Part shown: in pieces, positions 4,792 to 40,663 of the stretch
Layout: every line of letters begins with the position of its first letter
How positions within the stretch are numbered: the first letter of the stretch is position 1
DNA from: Solitalea longa
GTDB lineage: Bacteria; Bacteroidota; Bacteroidia; Sphingobacteriales; Sphingobacteriaceae
DNA length: 64,000 nucleotides
NCBI RefSeq assembly: GCF_002920915.1
Contig: NZ_PQVF01000006.1
Location: 248,001-312,000, forward strand
Reading direction: 5' to 3'
The notes under the pieces: generated by a model
What the model saw: only the letters and a program-made list of their open reading frames with translations
Told to the model about the DNA's origin: nothing
Database searches by the model: none
Program-made: the position numbers and the translations under genes

Positions 4792-5955
4792 ATGAACTGG
4801 ATTTTACGACAAACGCGGGGCGACAGGTGGATTTGGCTGGTGGTGTTTGCTTTATCGATGATATCGGTGTTGGCCGTGTACAGTTCTACGGGTACATTGG
4901 CTTACAAAAGCGATGTCAATCCCTTTCATTTCTTAATTAAGCACGGAACCATGATCGTGGCCGGTTTGGCCATCATGTATTTCGCTCATTTGCTTGATCA
5001 TCGCTACTATTCTCGTATTGCTCAATTACTTCTTTGGCTATCTATTCCTTTGCTGCTTTATACCTTGTTTTTTGGTAGCAGTATTAATAATGCCAGCCGT
5101 TGGGTTACTTTGCCAATTATCAACCAAACATTCCAGTCTTCCGATTTGGCCAAACTGGCCTTGTTCATGTATTTGGCTCGCGCTATAACAAAGCGCCAGG
5201 AGAAGATCAAGGATTTTAAGGAAGGATTTCTTCCGATTTTTATAGCGGTTATAGGTGTTTGTGGATTAATAGCTCCTGCCAACCTTTCAACGGCCTTAAT
5301 GGTTTTTGGAACCAGCATGCTGTTATTGTTGATCGGTCGCGTGAGTTTTACACAAATGGCCATTGTGGGTATTGCGGGTGCGGTTTTGGTGGCTTTTGTA
5401 GTTTTCTTTGGACCTCGCCGTGGTGTTTACAAAGCCCGGGTCGAGGCATTCTTGCATCCCGAAATGGTGCATTCTGATAAGAACTACCAAAGTGATCAGG
5501 CTAAAATCGCCATTGCTACCGGTGGTTTTCTTGGTAAAGGGCCGGGAAATAGTACCCAACGTAACTTTTTGCCATCACCCTATGCCGACTTTGTTTATGC
5601 TATTATTATTGAAGAATACGGAATGGTTGGAGGCTTGGTTATTCTGGCCTTGTATCTAATATTTCTATATCGATGTGTAAAAATAGTAACCCGAAGTCCT
5701 AAGGCCTTTGGGGCTTTGTTGGCGGCAGCATTAAGCTTTAGCTTGGTTATACAAGCGTTTGCAAATATGGCGGTTGCTACCAATTTATTTCCGGTAACGG
5801 GGGTTGCCCTACCTTTAGTAAGTATGGGTGGAACTTCAATTTTATTTACAAGCGCGGCCTTTGGAATTATTCTGAGTATTAGTCGCGATTTGGAAGAGGC
5901 CGAAAAGGCGGAAAAGAAAGAATCTACTGCTCCATCAAATGTTGTGATGGCATAA
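4792..5955 (+). CDS. ftsW: SEDS-family peptidoglycan polymerase FtsW
   Basis: Septal glycosyltransferase that polymerises lipid II with the class B PBP. The 387 residues are strongly hydrophobic with roughly ten membrane segments. Family landmarks include NNASRWVTLP, the KGPGNSTQRNFLPSPYADFVYAIIIEEYG loop (shown as landmarks, residues about 255-283) and GVALPLVSMGGTSILF near the end. The position between murD and murG supports FtsW rather than RodA. Confidence 0.95.
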   Translation: MNWILRQTRGDRWIWLVVFALSMISVLAVYSSTGTLAYKSDVNPFHFLIKHGTMIVAGLAIMYFAHLLDHRYYSRIAQLLLWLSIPLLLYTLFFGSSINNASRWVTLPIINQTFQSSDLAKLALFMYLARAITKRQEKIKDFKEGFLPIFIAVIGVCGLIAPANLSTALMVFGTSMLLLLIGRVSFTQMAIVGIAGAVLVAFVVFFGPRRGVYKARVEAFLHPEMVHSDKNYQSDQAKIAIATGGFLGKGPGNSTQRNFLPSPYADFVYAIIIEEYGMVGGLVILALYLIFLYRCVKIVTRSPKAFGALLAAALSFSLVIQAFANMAVATNLFPVTGVALPLVSMGGTSILFTSAAFGIILSISRDLEEAEKAEKKESTAPSNVVMA

Positions 5956-14477: not shown

Positions 14478-14548
14478 GATCGGGTGGCCGAGCGGTTAGG
14501 CAAGTGTCCGCAAGACGCTGTACAGTAGTTCAAATCTGCTCTCGATCT
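14478..14548 (+). tRNA. tRNA-Cys(GCA), copy 1, with C33
   Basis: Full cloverleaf by eye: acceptor GATCGGG/CTCGATC with T73 (the cysteine discriminator), D arm GCC/GGC, anticodon stem AGTGT/ACGCT, variable loop GTAC, T arm AGTAG/CTGCT with loop TTCAAAT. The anticodon loop is CCGCAAG, giving anticodon GCA at 14510-14512 but C at position 33, where almost all tRNAs have U, and G at 38. This copy is followed by a genomic CCA (14549-14551). Confidence 0.85.
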
Positions 14549-14571
14549 CCAACTTTCACCTTAAAAAAACA

Positions 14572-14642
14572 GATCGGGTGGCCGAGTGGTTAGGCAAGTG
14601 TCCGCAAGACGCTCTACAGTAGTTCAAATCTGCTCTCGATCT
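14572..14642 (+). tRNA. tRNA-Cys(GCA), copy 2, with C33
   Basis: Differs from copy 1 only in the D loop (AGTGG for AGCGG) and the variable loop (CTAC for GTAC). The anticodon loop CCGCAAG, including C33 and G38, is the same. No encoded CCA (TCAA follows). Confidence 0.85.
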
Positions 14643-14664
14643 CAAGCTTTCGTATTTAAAAAAA

Positions 14665-14735
14665 GATCGGGTGGCCGAGTGGTTAGGCAAGTGTCCGCAA
14701 GACGCTGTACAGTAGTTCAAATCTGCTCTCGATCT
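14665..14735 (+). tRNA. tRNA-Cys(GCA), copy 3, with C33
   Basis: Same body as the other two (variable loop GTAC, D loop AGTGG), again with C33 and G38 around the GCA anticodon. No encoded CCA. The spacer between copies is about 22 bases. Confidence 0.85.
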
Positions 14736-14786
14736 CACAAATGCCTTCTATCAAGAATTTAATGCTTAACTTTTTTCATTTTGAAA

Positions 14787-16672: not shown

Positions 16673-17548
16673 TTAATAGTTTTGAGCTGCTTTTACAATT
16701 TTAGCTTTTAATCCATCGCTAACATCAACCAATGGCAAACGAACAGCAGATCCACAAATACCTAACTGGTTCAAAAAGGTTTTAACCCCTGCCGGGCTTC
16801 CTTCTGCAAACAGCATGTTTATAATATCTGTTAGTTTGTAATGTAATGGACGAGCTTCTTCAAATTTCCCCTCCAAACATTTTCTGATCATGGTTGAAAA
16901 ATCTTTAGGGAATGCGTTTCCTACAACAGAGATCACTCCGTCAGCCCCTAAAGCAATCATTGGTAACGCAACCGCATCATCACCCGATATAAACAGAAAA
17001 TCTTTTGGTTTGTATTTTAAGATTTCCATGAATTGTTCAAAATTTCCAGAAGCTTCTTTTATACCAATTACATTATTTAACTCAGCCAAACGCAAAGTGG
17101 TTTGGGCTGTCATGTTTGAACCTGTGCGTCCAGGAACATTGTACAAAAGAATAGGAAGTTTTGAGTTTTCAGCCACTTGTTTATAGTGCTGGTAGATTCC
17201 TTCCTGAGCTGGCTTATTATAATATGGGCTCACCGATAAAATCGCTGAGAACCCTTCTGATTTAAAGTTTTTTACCTGATCAACAACAGCTGCGGTATTA
17301 TTACCTCCAATACCCGCAACTAACGGAACACGCTTATTAGTAATTTCGAGTACAAAATCAAAAACCTTCTGCTTTTCTTCCTTTGATAAGGTTGCAGTTT
17401 CGCCGGTGGTACCCATAGGCACTAAATAGTTAACACCACCAGTGATTAAATGTTCAATAAGATTTTTTAGGCCCGGAAAGTCAATACTTCCATCCGGATT
17501 AAAAGGGGTAACCAATGCAACACCCGTTCCTCTCAATTGTGTACTCAT
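16673..17548 (-). CDS. dapA: 4-hydroxy-tetrahydrodipicolinate synthase DapA
   Basis: Condenses pyruvate with aspartate semialdehyde, the first step to DAP and lysine; DAP is the substrate of the MurE in this window. TIM-barrel aldolase signatures: PMGTTGETATLS, VSPYYNKPAQEG with the catalytic tyrosine, and the Schiff-base lysine in GIKEASGN. The 291 residues are normal. Its first four bases overlap the end of the preceding gene (ATGA), so they are translationally coupled. Confidence 0.97.
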   Translation of the reverse strand: MSTQLRGTGVALVTPFNPDGSIDFPGLKNLIEHLITGGVNYLVPMGTTGETATLSKEEKQKVFDFVLEITNKRVPLVAGIGGNNTAAVVDQVKNFKSEGFSAILSVSPYYNKPAQEGIYQHYKQVAENSKLPILLYNVPGRTGSNMTAQTTLRLAELNNVIGIKEASGNFEQFMEILKYKPKDFLFISGDDAVALPMIALGADGVISVVGNAFPKDFSTMIRKCLEGKFEEARPLHYKLTDIINMLFAEGSPAGVKTFLNQLGICGSAVRLPLVDVSDGLKAKIVKAAQNY

Positions 17549-18072
17549 TTTTTAATTAATGAAAGATAATGTAATACTTGGGCCGTAAAATTAACAATAC
17601 TTGTGTCTTTTTTACAATCTATCATCAAATCGTAAATAAAACTTTGATTTTGTTCGTATTTTGAAATTTTAAATCTGGAATTGGCTTTTAGTGCCAAATA
17701 AGATATGGTGGAATTGATTTCTTGTGAAAGATTAATTAATACATCGAATTGAACTTTTTGCAGTTCTTTAACTTTATCTTCTTTAGGTATCTTCAGATAG
17801 TTGAGATCTTTGTTCGTAATGAAGTTAAAATCACGTGCTTCCGTTCTGAACTCAGGTAGATCCTTCTCGTTAATTAACCCCCAAAAGGTGAGTTTTTTCT
17901 GCCTTAAATCAGGTGTTAAGGCAAGGTCTTTCACCTCTTTTAGATCCTCAATATTTTCGGCACAAAAAATAAACAGAAAGGATTCCACCTCCTTAAGTCC
18001 ATTAAACTCTAGCTGAGTTATGATCTTACCAGCTTCTCGTTTTAAAATATAGTTGGTTAATTGTGATTTCAT
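17545..18072 (-). CDS. Conserved hypothetical protein, DUF6913-like
   Basis: A 175-residue protein without signal or membrane segment. It shows alternating strands and helices (FLFIFCAENIEDLKEV, KLTFWGLINEKDLPEF, QFDVLINLSQEINSTI), the last resembling a glycosyltransferase-like DVLINLS pattern. It sits between ligA and dapA in one operon, an order seen in Bacteroidota. Function unknown. Confidence 0.65.
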   Translation of the reverse strand: MKSQLTNYILKREAGKIITQLEFNGLKEVESFLFIFCAENIEDLKEVKDLALTPDLRQKKLTFWGLINEKDLPEFRTEARDFNFITNKDLNYLKIPKEDKVKELQKVQFDVLINLSQEINSTISYLALKANSRFKISKYEQNQSFIYDLMIDCKKDTSIVNFTAQVLHYLSLIKK

Positions 18073-18081
18073 TGTTTTGGT

Positions 18082-20791
<2,710 letters not shown>

Positions 20792-34301: not shown

Positions 34302-34338
34302 TTACGATATTTGTAAACAGCATAAATATATCAGATAA

Positions 34339-34365
34339 ATGAAAATATACGCGACTGAAATCTGA
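34339..34365 (+). pseudogene. Possible C-terminal relic of a HigB toxin gene
   Basis: A mini-frame coding MKIYATEI and a TGA lies five bases before the antitoxin start. HigB-type toxins of this operon type often end in a KIDATTI-like tail (from memory), and KIYATEI resembles it. The frame is closed by a TAA just upstream, so nothing else of a toxin remains. Confidence 0.3.
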
Positions 34366-34370
34366 AGACA

Positions 34371-34727
34371 ATGAATATTAAGCCAATTAAATCGGAAAAG
34401 GATTATAATGATGCAATGAAAAGACTTGAATTTCTTTTTGATGCAAAAAAGGGTTCGTTGGAAGGAGATGAATTGGAAATTCTTGGAATACTGATTGATC
34501 AATTTGAAAAGGAGCATTTTCCTGTAGGGTTACCCGATCCGGTTGAAGCCATTAAGTTCAGAATGGAAAAATTGAATTACAGCCAATCGGATTTGGCAAA
34601 AATCATTGGGTTAAAGAGCCGTGCCAGTGAAATTCTGAATAAGAAAAGAAAATTGTCATTGGAAATGATACGTCAGCTTCATGAAAAGTTGAATATTCCA
34701 ACTGATGTTTTAATTCAAATCTATTAA
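34371..34727 (+). CDS. Orphan HigA-type antitoxin (XRE helix-turn-helix)
   Basis: 118 residues. The N-terminal KPIKSEKDYNDAMKRLEFLFDAKKGS region and LEILGILIDQFEKEHFP are typical of HigA antitoxins in which the N-terminal arm neutralises the toxin; the C-terminal part is an XRE domain (YSQSDLAKIIGLKSRASEIL). No toxin ORF lies next to it on either side, only a possible relic upstream. It may act as a stand-alone regulator or anti-addiction factor. Confidence 0.85.
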   Translation: MNIKPIKSEKDYNDAMKRLEFLFDAKKGSLEGDELEILGILIDQFEKEHFPVGLPDPVEAIKFRMEKLNYSQSDLAKIIGLKSRASEILNKKRKLSLEMIRQLHEKLNIPTDVLIQIY

Positions 34728-34735
34728 ATGATAAA

Positions 34736-34800
34736 ACCACAGCGTTGCACTGAGTAACACATCGTTTTAAACTCTGATAAACACTGCACAACTCTGTGGT
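34736..34800. repeat. Inverted repeat ACCACAG..GTTGC / ..CTCTGTGGT
   Basis: A 20-base arm (34736-34755) and its imperfect complement (34782-34800) face each other between two convergent genes, followed on plus by a T-rich stretch. It may serve as a bidirectional terminator or be a dispersed repeat. Confidence 0.6.
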
Positions 34801-34809
34801 CATTCTTTT

Positions 34810-35652
34810 TTATTTGTTTGCCATTTGCATGTTCCAAACACCGCTTTTGGCTGTTTCTTGAGCGTATACCGAGAAGTCTTTAGCTTTTCTTCCCAATACT
34901 TTCTCAATGTCGTTAGTTACCGAAGAATTTCGTCCGTCGAGCACTTCTGTAAAGAGGTAGTTTACCAACCAGATAATTTCTTCCGGAACCTGGTAATCAC
35001 GAAGCATAGCAGTATAGTCTTCCAACGAAAGTCCTTCAAACTGAATTTTTCTTCCGGTGGCATTGGCAATTTCAGCAACAGCCTGTCCAAATGTTAGCAG
35101 GCGAGGGCCGGTAAGCTCATAAACCTGCCCATTGTGCTTATCGTTGATCAGTGCCTGTACAACAACGTCAGCAATATCATCGGCATCGGTAAACGGTTCC
35201 TGTGCCTCGGCTCTAGGCAAAGCCACATATCCGGCTAGCACCGGTTCAAGGAAAATACTTTCGCTAAAATTTTGATTGAACCAGCTTGATCGAACAATGG
35301 TCCAGTTGAGAGCTGTATTCATTACCACTTGTTCGCAGGCCTGGGCTTCCTTTTCGCCACGGCCCGAAAGCAACACCATTTTGGTAATGCCGTTTTCAGC
35401 AGCAAGGGTAGTGAAATTACGAATGGCGTCTACCGACGAGGGAATGGCCAAATCAGGCTGAAAGGTGATGTAAACGGAATCCATTCCAGCTATGGCGTCT
35501 AACCATGTTGCGGGATTTTCCCAATCAAAAGGAGGGTTTGCATTTCTTGATCCGATACGGAGATCGGTATGTCCTAACTGAGTTAATTGTTCAGCAACCC
35601 TGCGACCTGTTTTTCCTGTGCCGCCTAGGATTAAAATTTTGTTACTTTTCAT
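34810..35652 (-). CDS. NmrA-like NAD(P)-binding protein
   Basis: 280 residues with an N-terminal Rossmann fold (ILILGGTGKTGRRVAEQLTQLG) and the NmrA/SDR-atypical pattern (KMVLLSGRGEKEAQACEQ, WTIVRSSWFNQNF). The YxxxK pair of classical SDRs is absent, so a redox-sensing or quinone-reductase-like role (as in QOR2/YtfG) is possible. It is followed upstream by a divergently reading frame on the same strand (AraC regulator); a shared regulation is a guess. Confidence 0.85.
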   Translation of the reverse strand: MKSNKILILGGTGKTGRRVAEQLTQLGHTDLRIGSRNANPPFDWENPATWLDAIAGMDSVYITFQPDLAIPSSVDAIRNFTTLAAENGITKMVLLSGRGEKEAQACEQVVMNTALNWTIVRSSWFNQNFSESIFLEPVLAGYVALPRAEAQEPFTDADDIADVVVQALINDKHNGQVYELTGPRLLTFGQAVAEIANATGRKIQFEGLSLEDYTAMLRDYQVPEEIIWLVNYLFTEVLDGRNSSVTNDIEKVLGRKAKDFSVYAQETAKSGVWNMQMANK

Positions 35653-35727
35653 GACGAGAATGTTTTTATCTGTGATACAATCAAAGTTGCTATAGTATTG
35701 ATAAAAACATTTATCGGAAAGGAACTA

Positions 35728-36603
35728 TTATTTGTTCGAAAAGGAGTTTTGTTTTACTTCATTGGGCCGAACCCCAAACTTCTTCTGAAAAGCGTTAGAA
35801 AAGGAACTTAAGCTTTCATAACCCACATACCATGCGGTTTCTTGTACGCCCATTTCACTGTTTCCCAGCAACTCATAGGCTTTGCTTAAGCGTTCCTCCT
35901 GCAGGTATTTAAAAACGGGTAGACCAAATAACTCCCGGAATTTTGTTTTTAGCTTATTATTATTCAAGCCCACCAGTTTCGACAATTCATTTAATGATGG
36001 AGGTTTTGAAATGTTATTGATAACAATATCCCTTGCCTGAAACAATTTGTCTTTGTCAAATGAATTAATGTCGCCTTTCTTTTCACTTTCAAGCAATGCA
36101 AAGTAGTGGGAGAGTAGCTCATTTACCTGGCTTTTCAGAAACATGATCCGGGTGTTACCGCTGTAAGTATTGTTAAAGATCTTTTGAACTGCATTTTGCA
36201 TATCGCGGGTCATGTAAAATTCCGGGCCTTTTACAAAATGTTCAGTGGGGTTTAATAATTGGGGTAAATGCTCCTGAAAAATGTCTTTCTCTGCCTGCGG
36301 CAATGTTTGCATGGTTTTGATCCTGGCAAATATGCTAATGGACTGAAGTGGCCTATCAGGAGCGATTTTATGCGAGAAGCCAACCTTTTCATTGCCAAAA
36401 AATGAAACAGCTAACCCTGTGGTATTGGTCAGGTATTTGGTTTGACCATTATGTTTAATTTCCAGCTCAACATTCCCCGATCCGTAAAAGGCAAAACCTA
36501 TCACATCTCCATCCATTTCACATTTTTGAACAAATGTTTTTGAAGCATTTGATTGCTCAATCAGCACAATGAGATTGTTAAACTCTAAAATGTCGGTAGT
36601 CAT
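35728..36603 (-). CDS. AraC-family transcriptional regulator
   Basis: 291 residues. The C-terminal AraC double helix-turn-helix spans about 190-288 (PPSLNELSKLVGLNNNKLK and ETAWYVGYESLSSFSNAFQKKFGVRPNE). The N-terminal part is a ligand-sensing region without clear family. It lies 76 bases upstream of the NmrA-like gene on the same strand and could control it. Confidence 0.92.
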   Translation of the reverse strand: MTTDILEFNNLIVLIEQSNASKTFVQKCEMDGDVIGFAFYGSGNVELEIKHNGQTKYLTNTTGLAVSFFGNEKVGFSHKIAPDRPLQSISIFARIKTMQTLPQAEKDIFQEHLPQLLNPTEHFVKGPEFYMTRDMQNAVQKIFNNTYSGNTRIMFLKSQVNELLSHYFALLESEKKGDINSFDKDKLFQARDIVINNISKPPSLNELSKLVGLNNNKLKTKFRELFGLPVFKYLQEERLSKAYELLGNSEMGVQETAWYVGYESLSSFSNAFQKKFGVRPNEVKQNSFSNK

Positions 36604-36623
36604 TACAGTAAACAGCTAAGCAT

Positions 36624-36923
36624 TTATGCAGCGCTCCCTTCCAAGGGTTTGATATTATTTATTTCTTTCTCTTTCTGATTTTTCTCTTCTTCGAGATCAT
36701 AATCATTCTGAAGCCCCAGCCAAAATTTGGCACTTGTTCCGAAAAATTTGGAGAATCGCAATGCGGTATCAGCTGTTATTCTACGATTACCTTTTATGAT
36801 CTCAGAAATGCGTGTTTGTGGGAGAAAAGTTTCTTTCGCCAATCGATAGGCCGAAATTTCCATTGGAATTAAGAATTCCTCTAAAAGTATTTTCCCTGGA
36901 TGAATATTTTCAAGCTTTTCCAT
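36624..36923 (-). CDS. higA: HigA antitoxin (XRE)
   Basis: 99 residues starting MEKLENIHPGKILLEEFL, the standard HigA opening, followed by an XRE helix-turn-helix (ISAYRLAKETFLPQTRISEI) and FGTSAKFWLGLQNDYDL. The alternative start at 36947 is a TTG. The toxin gene is just upstream: its stop lies 11 bases before this ATG. A full HigBA type II pair. Confidence 0.93.
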   Translation of the reverse strand: MEKLENIHPGKILLEEFLIPMEISAYRLAKETFLPQTRISEIIKGNRRITADTALRFSKFFGTSAKFWLGLQNDYDLEEEKNQKEKEINNIKPLEGSAA

Positions 36924-36933
36924 GCCTGTATAA

Positions 36934-37215
36934 TTAATGATAATCAACTATTTTAATTTCGTAAGCATCATTATTAATCCATTGAAAGATGATTCTCCAT
37001 TGATTGTTAATGCGAATGCTGTAATGATCTTGAAGATCTCCTTTTAATTTTTCCAATCTGTTGGCAGGTGGGATTCTTAGGTCATTTATATCATGAGCAT
37101 TATTGATCATTCTAAGTTTCCGTCGTGCAACATCCTGAATTTCGTTTGGCAATTTTTTCGACCGAATCCCATTCCAAATTTTTTCGGATTCTTTATCGCC
37201 AAAGGTTTTGATCAT
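36934..37215 (-). CDS. higB: HigB/RelE-family toxin
   Basis: 93-residue ribosome-dependent mRNA interferase type. DKESEKIWNGIRSKKLP and LRMINNAHDINDLRIPPANRLEKLKGD followed by YSIRINNQWRIIFQW are diagnostic of the HigB/killer family. Toxin-first order with the antitoxin behind is typical for higBA. Its upstream sequence has AACGTTAGTAAC, a possible junction mark (see finding). Confidence 0.93.
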   Translation of the reverse strand: MIKTFGDKESEKIWNGIRSKKLPNEIQDVARRKLRMINNAHDINDLRIPPANRLEKLKGDLQDHYSIRINNQWRIIFQWINNDAYEIKIVDYH

Positions 37216-37398
37216 TGATAATGAGTTACGTTACTAACGTTAAAGGTAAGTATTTGTTTTTTTATGGACAAGTTTGCTGGTTGGTAATACTTTAAATCAA
37301 TGAAGCATGTTTCTCACTCTCTGAAAAATTAAACATAGTAGCGTTTCTTAAGATTGCTTATTATAAAATGGGACTTTTAACAAGCATTAAGGCATTGA

Positions 37399-38043
37399 TT
37401 ATGGTTTCCGCGCCCGCAGTTCACGAAATGTTTTTGTTTTTTCGTCAAATAAGTAAATAATAGGCTTGCAATGCGAACAATCAAAATAGAAGCCACTCGT
37501 GTCAGGAGGGTTAACTATTAACATTCTACTACTTACTTTAAAGTCATATCCTACAGATGCGCTGGGAGAATCATATATTTTTCCTGTTTTTCTATCTATT
37601 AATAAACTGCTCTGACAAGGAGAACCACATCCCCAAAAAACAAAGGAATAATGTCCAGCAAAATTTGCTGTGTCCGCACGATAACCTTCTCGAAGGTTAG
37701 TTCGAAAGTTATTTGCCTCATTGTTTGATTTTAAATCAAGATTTGCATATTTCTCATGGTCAATTTTATCAACCGGGAAATCTTCAAATCCTATATATAG
37801 TTCAAATTTTAAGTAAGCATGTGAGATTTTACTTCTATCAATTGTACTGTCCCCATATAGTCGAACATTTTCTGTTTCGTAAATAACGCCATTAATTGTT
37901 TTTGGGGAAGTTTTATTTAAATCACTTCTTGGTCTAATGGAAATTGAAATACTGTCTTTCGCTGCAGTGTCCTTTGTCTTTTGTTTGTCGTAACAACTAT
38001 TGCCAAGTATTAAAAAAGTCAGTGCGTACACAATGTTCTTCAT
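37399..38043 (-). CDS. Lipoprotein of unknown function
   Basis: 214 residues from the preferred ATG at 38043 (MKNIVYALTFLILGNSC), which gives a lipoprotein signal with the lipobox LGNSC. An in-frame ATG at 38067 would add eight residues. The C-terminal half contains NFAGHYSFVFWGCGSPCQSSLLIDRKTGKIYD-like strands (short form: GHYSFVFWGCGSPCQS), seen in other uncharacterised secreted proteins. Codirectional single gene in the small-gene array; 183 bases separate its stop from higB. Confidence 0.75.
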   Translation of the reverse strand: MKNIVYALTFLILGNSCYDKQKTKDTAAKDSISISIRPRSDLNKTSPKTINGVIYETENVRLYGDSTIDRSKISHAYLKFELYIGFEDFPVDKIDHEKYANLDLKSNNEANNFRTNLREGYRADTANFAGHYSFVFWGCGSPCQSSLLIDRKTGKIYDSPSASVGYDFKVSSRMLIVNPPDTSGFYFDCSHCKPIIYLFDEKTKTFRELRARKP

Positions 38044-38049
38044 ATATTT

Positions 38050-38088
38050 CTGACTAAGGGTTTTCATTTATTGGCTTAGTGTAATAAT
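38050..38088 (-). repeat. 39-base leader shared with 38844-38882, copy 1
   Basis: 33 of 39 positions match the segment in front of the neighbouring lipoprotein gene. It covers an ATG at 38067 and a TTAGTC motif just before the real start. Confidence 0.7.
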
Positions 38089-38110
38089 TCTTAAAAGAAC
38101 CAGTGGGTAT

Positions 38111-38839
38111 TTATTTAATTGGTTCTCCATTGAAATATTTTCTATTCTTATCCTTAGCGTCAATTGTGTCAAGGTTTAGGAGTGTGAATGTTTTAGGATC
38201 AGCACCTTTAATTTTCTGCAATCCATAATAAACATTTTTGTCATCTATAAAATAACAATTACTGCAATTCCAACAACCTCGTTCCGGGTTCAATACTTTA
38301 ATTGTCTTAGGATCGGCTCCGTCTATTTTAGAAAAATCCTCAGGTGGTCCACCATAAAAAACAGATTTTTTGTCTGTTCCACCAGCAATACTATCAAATG
38401 GAACAAATGTTTTAGGGTCTGCTCCAACAACCTCAACTGGATATTCACCATCTGAATTACCCCACCATAAATAGACTTTCCCTCTAGTTATAAAAAATCC
38501 ATCTTTTACTGTTCGAAATGTTTTCAAATCAAAAAAGTCTGTTATGTCTTTAAAGTATTGGGTGGTGAGTAAAGTATCCTCACTTATCGTTCTGAAACAT
38601 GCAGTCAATTTGTAAATCTTGTTTTTATTGTCCTTATAGATATTGTCGACTATTTTTTTATAGCTAATTGTGTCGTCAACTGGATCAACAAACATTTCTT
38701 TATGCTTTTTATCCTGGACAAACTCCACCAGATTGTTGCCTGGCAAATTTCTATGAACATTAGGTTTTTGTTTTTGCCCGCAAGCTGTTAAAATCGCAAA
38801 AAGTGTAAATGATAATATAAGAAGTGATAATCTCATCAT
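38111..38839 (-). CDS. DKNYY-family lipoprotein
   Basis: 242 residues with lipobox (FAILTAC). Repeated units of a colour-coded pattern, such as KSVFYGG..DFSKIDGADPKTIKVL and KNVYYGLQKIKGADPKTFTLL, are the DKNYY family signature (WD-like short repeats; function unknown). Two cysteine pairs in GCWNCSNC may bind metal or form a disulfide. A start codon ATGATG follows an ATTAGGC motif by a few bases. Confidence 0.8.
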   Translation of the reverse strand: MMRLSLLILSFTLFAILTACGQKQKPNVHRNLPGNNLVEFVQDKKHKEMFVDPVDDTISYKKIVDNIYKDNKNKIYKLTACFRTISEDTLLTTQYFKDITDFFDLKTFRTVKDGFFITRGKVYLWWGNSDGEYPVEVVGADPKTFVPFDSIAGGTDKKSVFYGGPPEDFSKIDGADPKTIKVLNPERGCWNCSNCYFIDDKNVYYGLQKIKGADPKTFTLLNLDTIDAKDKNRKYFNGEPIK

Positions 38840-38843
38840 AGTG

Positions 38844-38882
38844 CTGCCTAATGTTTTTCATTTATTGGTTTAATGTAAGAAT
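38844..38882 (-). repeat. 39-base leader shared with 38050-38088, copy 2
   Basis: See copy 1. Contains ATTAGGCAGC (minus strand) next to the start codon of the DKNYY gene. Confidence 0.7.
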
Positions 38883-39031
38883 AAACCGCTTTTTTCTCTC
38901 TCCGTTTAGTTTTTATTCCTATGCTAAACCTTAGCGGGAGAGGTGATTTTTTCAATATATGTTGAATTGCCGTTAATGTTAAAGCTGGCCAATGGTTGTC
39001 TGGTATCAAGGTTTATCTCATGCATTGGTTT

Positions 39032-39640
39032 TTAATTAACCCTTTGTTCAATTATTTCCGTCATCTTAATTTTTCCGTTGCCTGAAACTTTACCAGTCAT
39101 AAAACGAATATACTTTTTCATTGTATTTTCCTTTGGACCGATACTGTCACATTCGCAGCTCCGTATGGAGTCAACCGAATATATTGTCATGTCTTGATTT
39201 ATTTTAATGCTCTCCTTACACCAAAAACAGCAATCGGAGCCACAACCACCTACTCCTAAATATTGCTCATTTATTCTTTGTCCTTTCTTTGAAAATGTTG
39301 TAAGGACAGGAACTAACATTTCAGCTGGTGCAAGCCAAATAATTTTGTACGTTTTGCTTGTATCAGGAAGTAGTCCATAGCTCCATATCTCGTTTGGATA
39401 TTCAGAATTAATGAAAGTATTGTCTTTCTCGTTTAGTCTTTTTAGTGAGGAAGTTGCTTGGATTTCGTCTGTATTTATTGTCAGAGGTAGTGATAACACT
39501 TTAAACTTCCTTATGAATTGTCTAAAGTTTGTTTGATTTATGGCGCTAATTGTCTTTTCATTTGAGTCTTTCCCCGAATTTGTCGAACAACTTAGAAGTA
39601 AGAAAAGGGGAAGGATATGGAAATATTTTAAAAATTTCAT
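39032..39640 (-). CDS. Lipoprotein of unknown function
   Basis: 202 residues with a lipoprotein signal (ILPLFLLLSC). The middle has GVGGCGSDCCFWCKES and a later CECD, a cysteine cluster that may be disulfide-bonded. No family recognised. The start codon lies two bases after an ATTAGAC motif. Confidence 0.7.
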   Translation of the reverse strand: MKFLKYFHILPLFLLLSCSTNSGKDSNEKTISAINQTNFRQFIRKFKVLSLPLTINTDEIQATSSLKRLNEKDNTFINSEYPNEIWSYGLLPDTSKTYKIIWLAPAEMLVPVLTTFSKKGQRINEQYLGVGGCGSDCCFWCKESIKINQDMTIYSVDSIRSCECDSIGPKENTMKKYIRFMTGKVSGNGKIKMTEIIEQRVN

Positions 39641-39726
39641 TGTCTAATGGTCGATGGCTGGTGTTTGAACTTGCTGGTAACGTTAAAAATTGTCGAAAGC
39701 GCGATGTAAACACCTTTATATTTTCG

Positions 39727-40077
39727 TCAAATAAGCTTTCGGTTATAAACATCTTCAACTCGGTCTTTTAACAGTACAATTAATTCAGTCTGCATATAGT
39801 CATAGTCGTCGGGAATGTATAGGCATACAATTTTCTTGTTTTTATAGATGTCAGGAAAATGTTCTCTTATATGATTCCTATGGTGTTTTTCCATTACCAC
39901 AACGCTGTCTGCCCAGTTCAATAATTCTGATGTTAAAACTGTGTTTGCGGTTTTATCTGTTCCTGCTGACTTTACTTCAAAACGATTGTCATTCTCGTAA
40001 ATTTTATGTGCAGTTGCACTTCTCATTCTATTAATAGTGCATACAAATAGCAGTTTTAATTTTTCTTCGCTTGGCAT
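39727..40077 (-). CDS. Low-molecular-weight protein-tyrosine-phosphatase-like protein
   Basis: 116 residues. The LMW-PTP fold opens with LLFVCTINRMRSATAH, matching the CX5R(S/T) P-loop (Cys about residue 12), and the general-acid aspartate could be in LYIPDDYDYM. Shorter than typical LMW-PTPs (about 150), as in several small stand-alone phosphatase-like proteins. Start codon directly after a GTTAGAAT motif. Single gene in the array. Confidence 0.85.
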   Translation of the reverse strand: MPSEEKLKLLFVCTINRMRSATAHKIYENDNRFEVKSAGTDKTANTVLTSELLNWADSVVVMEKHHRNHIREHFPDIYKNKKIVCLYIPDDYDYMQTELIVLLKDRVEDVYNRKLI

Positions 40078-40080
40078 ATT

Positions 40081-40267
40081 CTAACTATCTCTATTGTCTT
40101 TTCAAAATTGTCAATGGAGTCGAACGTTTTGCACATTTGTAATGGTTGGGAGTTACAGCGTAAATGTTAATTCGAAGAACAGAACTTCAATAACCACAAA
40201 CTGTCTGCTGATCAAGAAACCCATCATATTGCAAATGTGCTATTACCTGCAGGCTTTCTGTCGTTAG
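40081..40267. repeat. attC-like inverted-repeat element
   Basis: Outer CTAAC/GTTAG arms (40081-40085 and 40263-40267) and inner arms GCACATTTG (40131-40139) and CAAATGTGC (40232-40240, extended on both sides by GGG/CCC) make a nested inverted repeat. The outer right arm contains the stop codon of the next gene, and the left arm abuts the start codon of the previous one. This is the architecture of integron recombination sites, though longer than usual and without a perfect GTTRRRY. Confidence 0.45.
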
Positions 40268-40611
40268 TCAAGTTGTATCTCAATTATATTTCTCATGGTG
40301 TCAATGTTGAGCCAGTTTTGTTTATCGGGGCTTGGAACACATTCTTTTATGTCCAAGTTTCTGGCAAATCGACTTAATGCTTTTTTCCCAAACTTTAAAA
40401 TCAATTCATATTGAGTTTGTCCGTTTTGGCCAAGAAATGCTTTTAGCGAAACTTGTCTATTGTCATTTACAAATTTTTGAGAATAACAACTGTCAGGCTG
40501 GTTTAATAAGACACCGTCACACCAATATCCTTTTATTTGGTCATAATTTGATTGTTCAAAGGCTTTACAGATTTCATATTCTAAATATTCGCAAAAATCC
40601 TGATCTAGCAT
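40264..40611 (-). CDS. Hypothetical 115-residue protein
   Basis: Soluble alpha/beta protein, no family recognised. Ends in DKQNWLNIDTMRNIIEIQLD, which resembles the tail of DUF-type immunity-like proteins, but nothing firm can be said. First gene of the codirectional array; no junction motif is visible before its start. Confidence 0.6.
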   Translation of the reverse strand: MLDQDFCEYLEYEICKAFEQSNYDQIKGYWCDGVLLNQPDSCYSQKFVNDNRQVSLKAFLGQNGQTQYELILKFGKKALSRFARNLDIKECVPSPDKQNWLNIDTMRNIIEIQLD

Positions 40612-40663
40612 TTTTATTTATTTTAGTTGTCCATGAGTGATAAACAAGTTTGCAGCCAACCAA

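Follow-up and report, generated by a model that had tools for sequence, protein, structure and literature searches.

A probable decayed cassette cluster in Solitalea longa, and indications of an integron system with insert-free recombinases in Bacteroidota

We analysed a 64,000-nucleotide (nt) stretch of the Solitalea longa genome (assembly GCF_002920915.1, contig NZ_PQVF01000006.1, positions 248,001 to 312,000; hereafter the window, on our contig C33). A run of small genes in it had been read in a first-pass annotation, made from the letters alone, as a decayed array of integron gene cassettes without an integrase. The run consists of five open reading frames (ORFs) of 115 to 242 amino acids (aa), all on the − strand between 37399 and 40611, with higB and higA directly downstream, as that annotation had described. 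The array and higBA lie between a DUF480 gene and a trehalase-like gene, and the interval contains 3 more genes at 34371–36603. The genes are as follows.

34302–40663, no strand: interval from the trehalase-like gene (named by eye) to the DUF480 gene, including the array and higBA
40264–40611, − strand: first gene of the array, 115-aa protein without a Pfam or NCBIfam family
39727–40077, − strand: low-molecular-weight phosphatase-like (LMWPc) protein, 116 aa (PF01451)
39032–39640, − strand: 202-aa protein without a family, lipoprotein-like start by eye (ORF list, Pfam/NCBIfam scan)
38111–38839, − strand: 242-aa DKNYY-family protein, lipoprotein-like start by eye (PF13644)
37399–38067, − strand: 222-aa protein without a family, lipoprotein-like start by eye (ORF list, Pfam/NCBIfam scan)
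36934–37215, − strand: HigB-like toxin (PF05015)
36624–36947, − strand: HigA antitoxin (TIGR02607)

The gap between the first two genes (40078–40263) has exact inverted arms, GCACATTTG at 40131–40139 and CAAATGTGC at 40232–40240. Most of it, 40245 to 40123 on the − strand, is a dispersed repeat that recurs with 70–80% identity in other genomes (DNA search of 41 genomes). From nine foreign copies (alignment A1, window copy excluded) we built a covariance model, R1, for which 40121–40248 is the sole match in the window at E≤10. The same model finds sites in 36 of 60 related genomes (E≤0.001), namely hairpins of about 130 nt resembling attC, the attachment site of integron cassettes; some of the listed matches in relatives are the reverse strand of one palindrome. 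The sites follow one plan: nnnTAACA, an arm, an AAAA-like spacer, a second arm, a loop of about 80 nt, two complementary arms and CGTTA. We refer to this family as type A, and in the window its parts are the following.

40121–40248, − strand: attC-like site, type A, partly decayed (R1, 72.5 bits, E 1.7e-17)
40241–40247, − strand: R'' box, GGTAATA (nnnTAACA in most other sites; alignment A6)
40232–40240, − strand: L'' arm, GCACATTTG on the − strand (paired columns of alignment A6, helix 1)
40131–40139, − strand: L' arm, CAAATGTGC on the − strand (paired columns of alignment A6)
40120–40126, − strand: R' box, CGTTCGA (CGTTAnn in most other sites; alignment A6)

The arm sequences differ widely among the sites, yet they covary. 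Alignment A6 holds 46 sites chosen from search matches (41 R1 matches, 4 nhmmer matches and the window site), with reverse-strand, weak or odd-length matches such as L096:6428, L101:4267 and L105:4015 left out (L numbers denote loci). All 16 of its stem pairs change on both sides. Paired cells make up 91.2%, against 59.1% in shuffled alignments (0 of 500 reach the real value) and 33–43% when the structure is slid along, a percentage that leans upward because the structure was derived from A6 and R1 favours such stems. An imperfect hairpin with arms conserved in structure and not in sequence is a feature of attC, and the A6 sites are hairpins of this kind.

Not every detail of the first-pass annotation held. 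It had described nested arms in this gap, of which the inner pair is exact, goes beyond chance and falls within the R1 match, whereas the outer CTAAC/GTTAG pair, although present and with a TAA stop inside CTAAC, lies outside the dispersed repeat. The R boxes sit directly outside the inner arms (L''/L'), so the outer pair does not represent recombination boxes. The crossover-like motifs claimed at the gene starts are near background: TTRRRY occurs within 20 nt upstream of 2 of the 5 starts (38839 and 39640) and GTTRRRY upstream of none, while TTRRRY is found in 8.2% of the region's 20-mers and upstream of 8 of the window's 53 ORFs that reach 100 aa. By eye, the CTTAGTC of that annotation suits a later ATG of the first gene. 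The proposed attC covariance search gave no attC match in an Rfam scan of the whole window, which returned 3 tRNAs only (three tRNA-Cys genes stand in tandem at 14478–14736); Rfam is not known to contain an attC family, and it was the lineage-specific model that recognized the site.

In several relatives R1 sites stand in rows adjoining a tyrosine recombinase gene. Because the two ends of an integron cassette are joined in its circular form, the R'' box that closes it is complementary to the bases that open it. We therefore compared cassette ends beyond AAC/GTT in 28 adjacent-site pairs from 14 arrays, and on average 5.29 of 8 positions are complementary. The controls give 2.74 within a site (42 sites) and 2.98 for random pairs (sd 0.25, maximum 4.0 in 20,000 draws); two of the 30 pairs and two of the 44 sites dropped out because no AAC or GTT box could be read in them. 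The mean includes seven pairs that score only 1–3; each of these covers more than 1.5 kb and may contain an overlooked site. In sequence, the cassettes bear the complementary-end signature expected of elements with a circular form. Additionally, in 15 loci chosen for an R1 site beyond the recombinase gene (not including L098, L100 and L102), the predicted 9-nt cassette start is present at 9/9 upstream of the first R1 site in all 15. In 11 of them its distance to the closer end of the integrase gene is 64–212 bp, which points to an attI-like junction; in three of the other four (L106, L107, L109) it follows a further site missed by R1, and in one the neighbouring sequence is masked.

Across 93 loci, a de novo detector asking for 9/9 ends and a hairpin returned 110 candidate cassettes; shuffles that move 2-base blocks gave 5.3. 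Of these candidates, 49 are in 13 known-array loci and 61 in 80 named integrase loci, which come from one profile scan of genome contigs and are those among the matches listed; the counts that follow share this scope. Bacteroidota account for 38 of the 80 loci, 37 with an intact integrase ORF. The distance between the KxxDR and LRHS motifs, which separates short integrases from IntI (see below), was measured as short in 30 of the 37 and not measured in 7, and 18 of the 30 loci have at least 1.5 kb downstream. One or more cassettes were found in 14 of these 18, with 43 in forward and 1 in reverse orientation; the four loci lacking a forward cassette are L135, L136, L141 and L143. The cassette-bearing named loci include Aquiflexum, Winogradskyella ursingii, Algoriphagus ornithinivorans, Flavobacterium aciduliphilum, Algibacter onchidii, Rufibacter and Seonamhaeicola. 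The 80 loci also contain seven with a classical IntI, and four of those hold candidates (L165, L170, L175, L187; none in L163, L167 and L177). In the 14 cassette-bearing Bacteroidota loci with a short integrase, array and integrase share a strand, with the array on the downstream side. In classical integrons the array is divergent from the integrase gene, and the same arrangement occurs in four genomes from the family to which the window belongs (L092, L096, L097, L099). A metagenome-assembled genome (MAG) of Flammeovirgaceae (L149) departs from the other named Bacteroidota loci in having two cassette candidates on the opposite strand to its short integrase, and a Spirochaetota MAG (L142) combines a short integrase with one forward candidate outside Bacteroidota. 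At L097:7545–9528 (genome G019) an ATPase and RloB-like gene pair (by eye), possibly a defence system, ends 15 bp before an attC-like site.

The recombinases of these arrays are not of the IntI type. In an alignment that also held three IntI from Bacteroidota and two proteins of the Xer kind, they, the S. longa integrase among them, have no counterpart of the IntI insert of about 42 residues, the feature specific to members of the IntI family. The KxxDR-to-LRHS spacing is 60–66 residues in the array recombinases that were measured, 66–68 in the two Xer rows and 102–107 in 8 of 10 IntI rows; the other two IntI rows were not measured, and for some further rows the script missed the motif or took it wrongly. 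The L131 integrase stays below the cut-off of the integron integrase profile TIGR02249 (217 of 265 bits). In a tree of 68 proteins IntI form one clade (support 100/100) with all 28 array rows outside it, and the branch parting the 56 short rows from IntI has support 83/81. NF040815 (site-specific tyrosine recombinase/integron integrase) matches 19 of 19 scanned proteins; by this title, curators already assign both names to proteins of this kind. The C-terminal motif SP(L/F)D is common to IntI and most array recombinases. For an Algoriphagus protein we used residues 90–353 of an AlphaFold model (mean predicted local distance difference test, pLDDT, 85.3), the span of the structure matches, because its predicted template modelling score (pTM) is 0.56. 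The model aligns with IntI4 (2a3v) over 255 of 317 residues (root-mean-square deviation, rmsd, 2.8; Z 21.1) and with the archaeal Xer 4a8e at Z 24.1 and rmsd 8.4. Many array integrases (e.g. L107, L131) bear an N-terminal extension, which could be an aid in binding folded DNA. We rejected its identification as a HARP domain in the S. longa integrase: the match reaches 21.2 of 25 bits and 2 of 19 other members match weakly, and we draw no function from it because it is below the gathering score.

This S. longa integrase lies on another contig. The tyrosine recombinase domain PF00589 has 12 matches in the genome and none on C33, so no integrase adjoins the window array. On contig C14, a 536-aa recombinase (G000:C14:22959–24569, G000 being the S. 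longa genome; L107:3960–5570) precedes three cassettes of one gene apiece, whose ends match in every case, and has an attI-like junction at L107:5697. The attC type of this system (own-type below) recurs on C14, C20, C21, C15, C23, C1, C31 and C32, with 30 matches at E<1e-3, some partial, of which 16 are on C14, C20 and C21. Indeed, an integrase and more attC copies elsewhere in the genome were what the first-pass annotation had suggested looking for. Further cassette runs are on C20, C21, C15 and C1; C20 (4.3 kb) and C21 (4.2 kb) carry own-type sites throughout, end to end, and C14, C15, C20, C21 and C1 terminate about 200 bp or less from such a site. The ends of 22 adjacent pairs have a mean score of 5.86, with 15 pairs at 7/8, compared with 3.73 for random pairs (maximum 4.82) and 4.04 within sites. 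Two of 24 pairs had no readable AAC or GTT box, and the first-cassette pair of L107, which scored 1/8 through a one-base index offset, was kept in the mean (the detector gives 9/9 at 5697 and 6270). The cassettes start with GTTR and then varied bases, e.g. GTTATGAGC and GTTACATGC, which differs from the GTTRRRY core of IntI integrons. Three of six cassette proteins scanned have a Pfam match (ankyrin repeats, leucine-rich repeats, DUF4304) and three have none. Own-type sites occur in two congeners with 78–95% (genome G001) and 81–94% (genome G003) identity, and none of the G001 and G003 DNA matches to C20 and C21 (E≤1e-20) spans a cassette gene, so the content turns over. At G000:C23:210066–210875 (L057) an own-type and a type A site stand close together in a second small integrase-less cluster, with ends at 7/9 by eye.

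The window locus also differs between these congeners; gene order is not conserved, in a comparison that the first-pass annotation had proposed. The interval from the DUF480 to the trehalase-like gene measures 6.4 kb in the window, 4.8 kb in G001 and about 50 bp in G003 (L060:13394 to 13444). G001 has a different first gene, a TacA/GNAT pair in place of HigBA, a DKNYY gene that is shortened and, of the 222-aa gene, a 3'-end remnant. The 115-aa protein has no counterpart at the same place in G001, and homologues in 2 of 294 other sampled genomes of the class (E≤1e-6). Among viral contigs searched for relatives of the LMWPc protein, 8 pattern matches included no true relative. The block 40121–38888 is 97% identical to G001, while adjoining matched pieces are at 84–92% and one 81-bp piece at 99%. 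On the left it is bounded by the R' end of the site, within the R' box, and on the right it stops inside a second repeat, element B, which fits the attC plan poorly. This element has 4 copies in G001 and 1 in G003, most of which end in AAACGTTAGTCAGA or near it. Two further features of the array are to be added.

38844–38995, − strand: element B, second dispersed repeat type, with copies in G001 and G003
39689–39715, − strand: possible 3'-half remnant of an own-type attC (nhmmer, model positions 91–117, E 0.022, weak)

G003 has two true IntI genes (L041:7256–8212 and L042:8551–9504); an R1 search of the 18–19 kb beside them found no site at E≤1, and they are In0-like. Also in G003, tyrosine recombinases at L043:8386–9225 and 16984–18933 adjoin genes judged by eye to encode IS91-like transposases, and type A sites lie within the same 20 kb.

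Taken as a whole, the window array is most probably a decayed, integrase-less cassette cluster of a Bacteroidota integron system whose main copy is on other contigs, comparable to a cluster of attC sites lacking integron integrases (CALIN). In kind, therefore, the first-pass annotation was right, even if its start motifs and R-box placement were weak or wrong. A cassette origin is supported near the window site; for the rest, HigBA included, we only infer it. By the mechanism we envisage, the recombinase would bind one folded strand of the site and cut at GTT, and the cassette would be excised as a circle and inserted at attI or, off target, elsewhere. Some cassettes may have been inserted off target between the DUF480 and trehalase-like genes and have decayed since.

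Several observations weigh against this interpretation. Recombination was not observed, and the case consists of sequence anatomy and covariation. The five-gene stretch has only a single full site, with a weak half site about 410 bp away; the latter was the only window match at E≤1 in an nhmmer search with three own-type attCs, and the model search of the window found no attC-like site at higBA. A search of the window array for cassette-end pairs at 9/9 found none, and the folding of the window site hardly beats shuffles (z −0.54 and −0.76); it is because of these two results that we call the locus decayed. A section of the IntegronFinder 2 paper (PMC9024848) sets the CALIN threshold at two or more attC sites, and part of another study (PMC9668308) places the attC sites of a CALIN less than 4 kb apart. 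The window locus, whose second site is no more than a weak half, does not clearly reach the two-site threshold. Since it is 97% identical in G001, the block with the LMWPc and lipoprotein-like genes need not be a recent independent insertion. A scan of 8 loci with homologues of the fourth and fifth genes of the array showed no R1 site near them (21 homologue loci outside the own one were returned, 19 for gene 4 and 2 for gene 5). Finally, of the 80 named integrase loci, among the matches listed, R1 recognizes sites in no more than 6, so that site sequences differ between lineages.

Alternatively, the hairpin repeat could be an element of the miniature inverted-repeat transposable element (MITE) or repetitive extragenic palindromic (REP) kind that inserts behind genes, in which case the cluster would be an ordinary variable island. 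Type A copies are alike over their full length, loop included, in distant genomes, and several (e.g. L045–L048, L054, L056) have no integrase seen adjoining, though no systematic test of this was made. Matched cassette ends in the integrase-linked arrays, however, are unexpected from a MITE, and the arms differ in sequence but covary. For the integrase-linked arrays such an origin is already contradicted, and as an account of the cluster we find it very improbable. More can be said for a cluster built by homologous recombination, phage or insertion sequence (IS) activity, with the attC carried inside a transferred fragment. The single full site left in the window, the presence of a second repeat type and the two truncated genes that G001 retains would all suit it, whereas the start of the G001-shared block at the R' end of the site would not. 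We hold this to be unlikely as the whole explanation, although it may be partly true alongside a cassette origin.

A different doubt concerns the recombinases, which might be Xer-like housekeeping or dimer-resolution enzymes standing by chance beside arrays served by classical IntI. They have no IntI insert and resemble XerA, and one of the congeners does possess true IntI genes. On the other hand, a classical IntI above the cut-off was present in only a single genome of each set searched (60 and 295 genomes), the arrays begin directly behind the short recombinase in several lineages, and S. longa has two other tyrosine recombinases that end in HPRA like XerC/D. We give this explanation little credence. 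In fold, catalytic-domain length and best sequence matches the array recombinases are like XerA/Xer (PDB 4a8e, 5hxy; NF040815), from which they differ in the SP(L/F)D-like C-terminal motif that most of them share with IntI and in their link to cassette arrays.

The decayed cluster and its relatives belong beside known systems that they resemble in part. Like the IntI integrons (class 1–3, Vibrio superintegrons), the Bacteroidota arrays have an integrase, an attI-like junction and mostly one-gene cassettes in one orientation; like these and CALIN, they have the R''/L''/L'/R' layout of attC, complementary cassette ends, and sites alike within a genome while the genes differ. They are unlike IntI integrons in that the integrase falls outside the IntI clade and has no insert. 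The phylum is not wholly new ground, because intI genes (in a part of PMC2426708, for the Bacteroidetes/Chlorobi group) and integrons (in a part of PMC8618304, for Bacteroidota) have been listed there before. Complete integrons have seldom been described in Bacteroidetes: the survey section of PMC9024848 gives one, that of Salinibacter ruber, where an earlier survey had only In0, the term for integrases that have no cassettes. Among the open papers of PubMed Central we found no description of attC arrays with insert-free integrases in Bacteroidota; one may exist in bioRxiv or subscription journals. Searches requiring an IntI-specific domain would probably miss these integrases. The integron-like subgroup of Smyshlyaev et al. 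(2021; PMC8138268), into which the present proteins may fall, also ranks among the nearest known systems. A passage of that paper treats the insertion as something integrons cannot function without, whereas the insert-free recombinases described here adjoin cassette arrays.

We consider it likely, with less assurance than for the window itself, that Bacteroidota harbour a widespread and mostly overlooked second integron lineage, in which XerA-like, insert-free recombinases take up and shuffle cassettes folded as single strands. Because its recombinases are insert-free, the insert would not be needed for integron function, and cassette capture would either have arisen twice or the insert would be a later addition to IntI. 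If these enzymes do recombine folded attC, the view of the IntI insert as essential, as worded in that passage of PMC8138268, needs revision. The origin of integrons could then be tested by comparing the two lineages, and the mobile cassette pool of a major phylum would become searchable with a covariance model and the cassette-end test.

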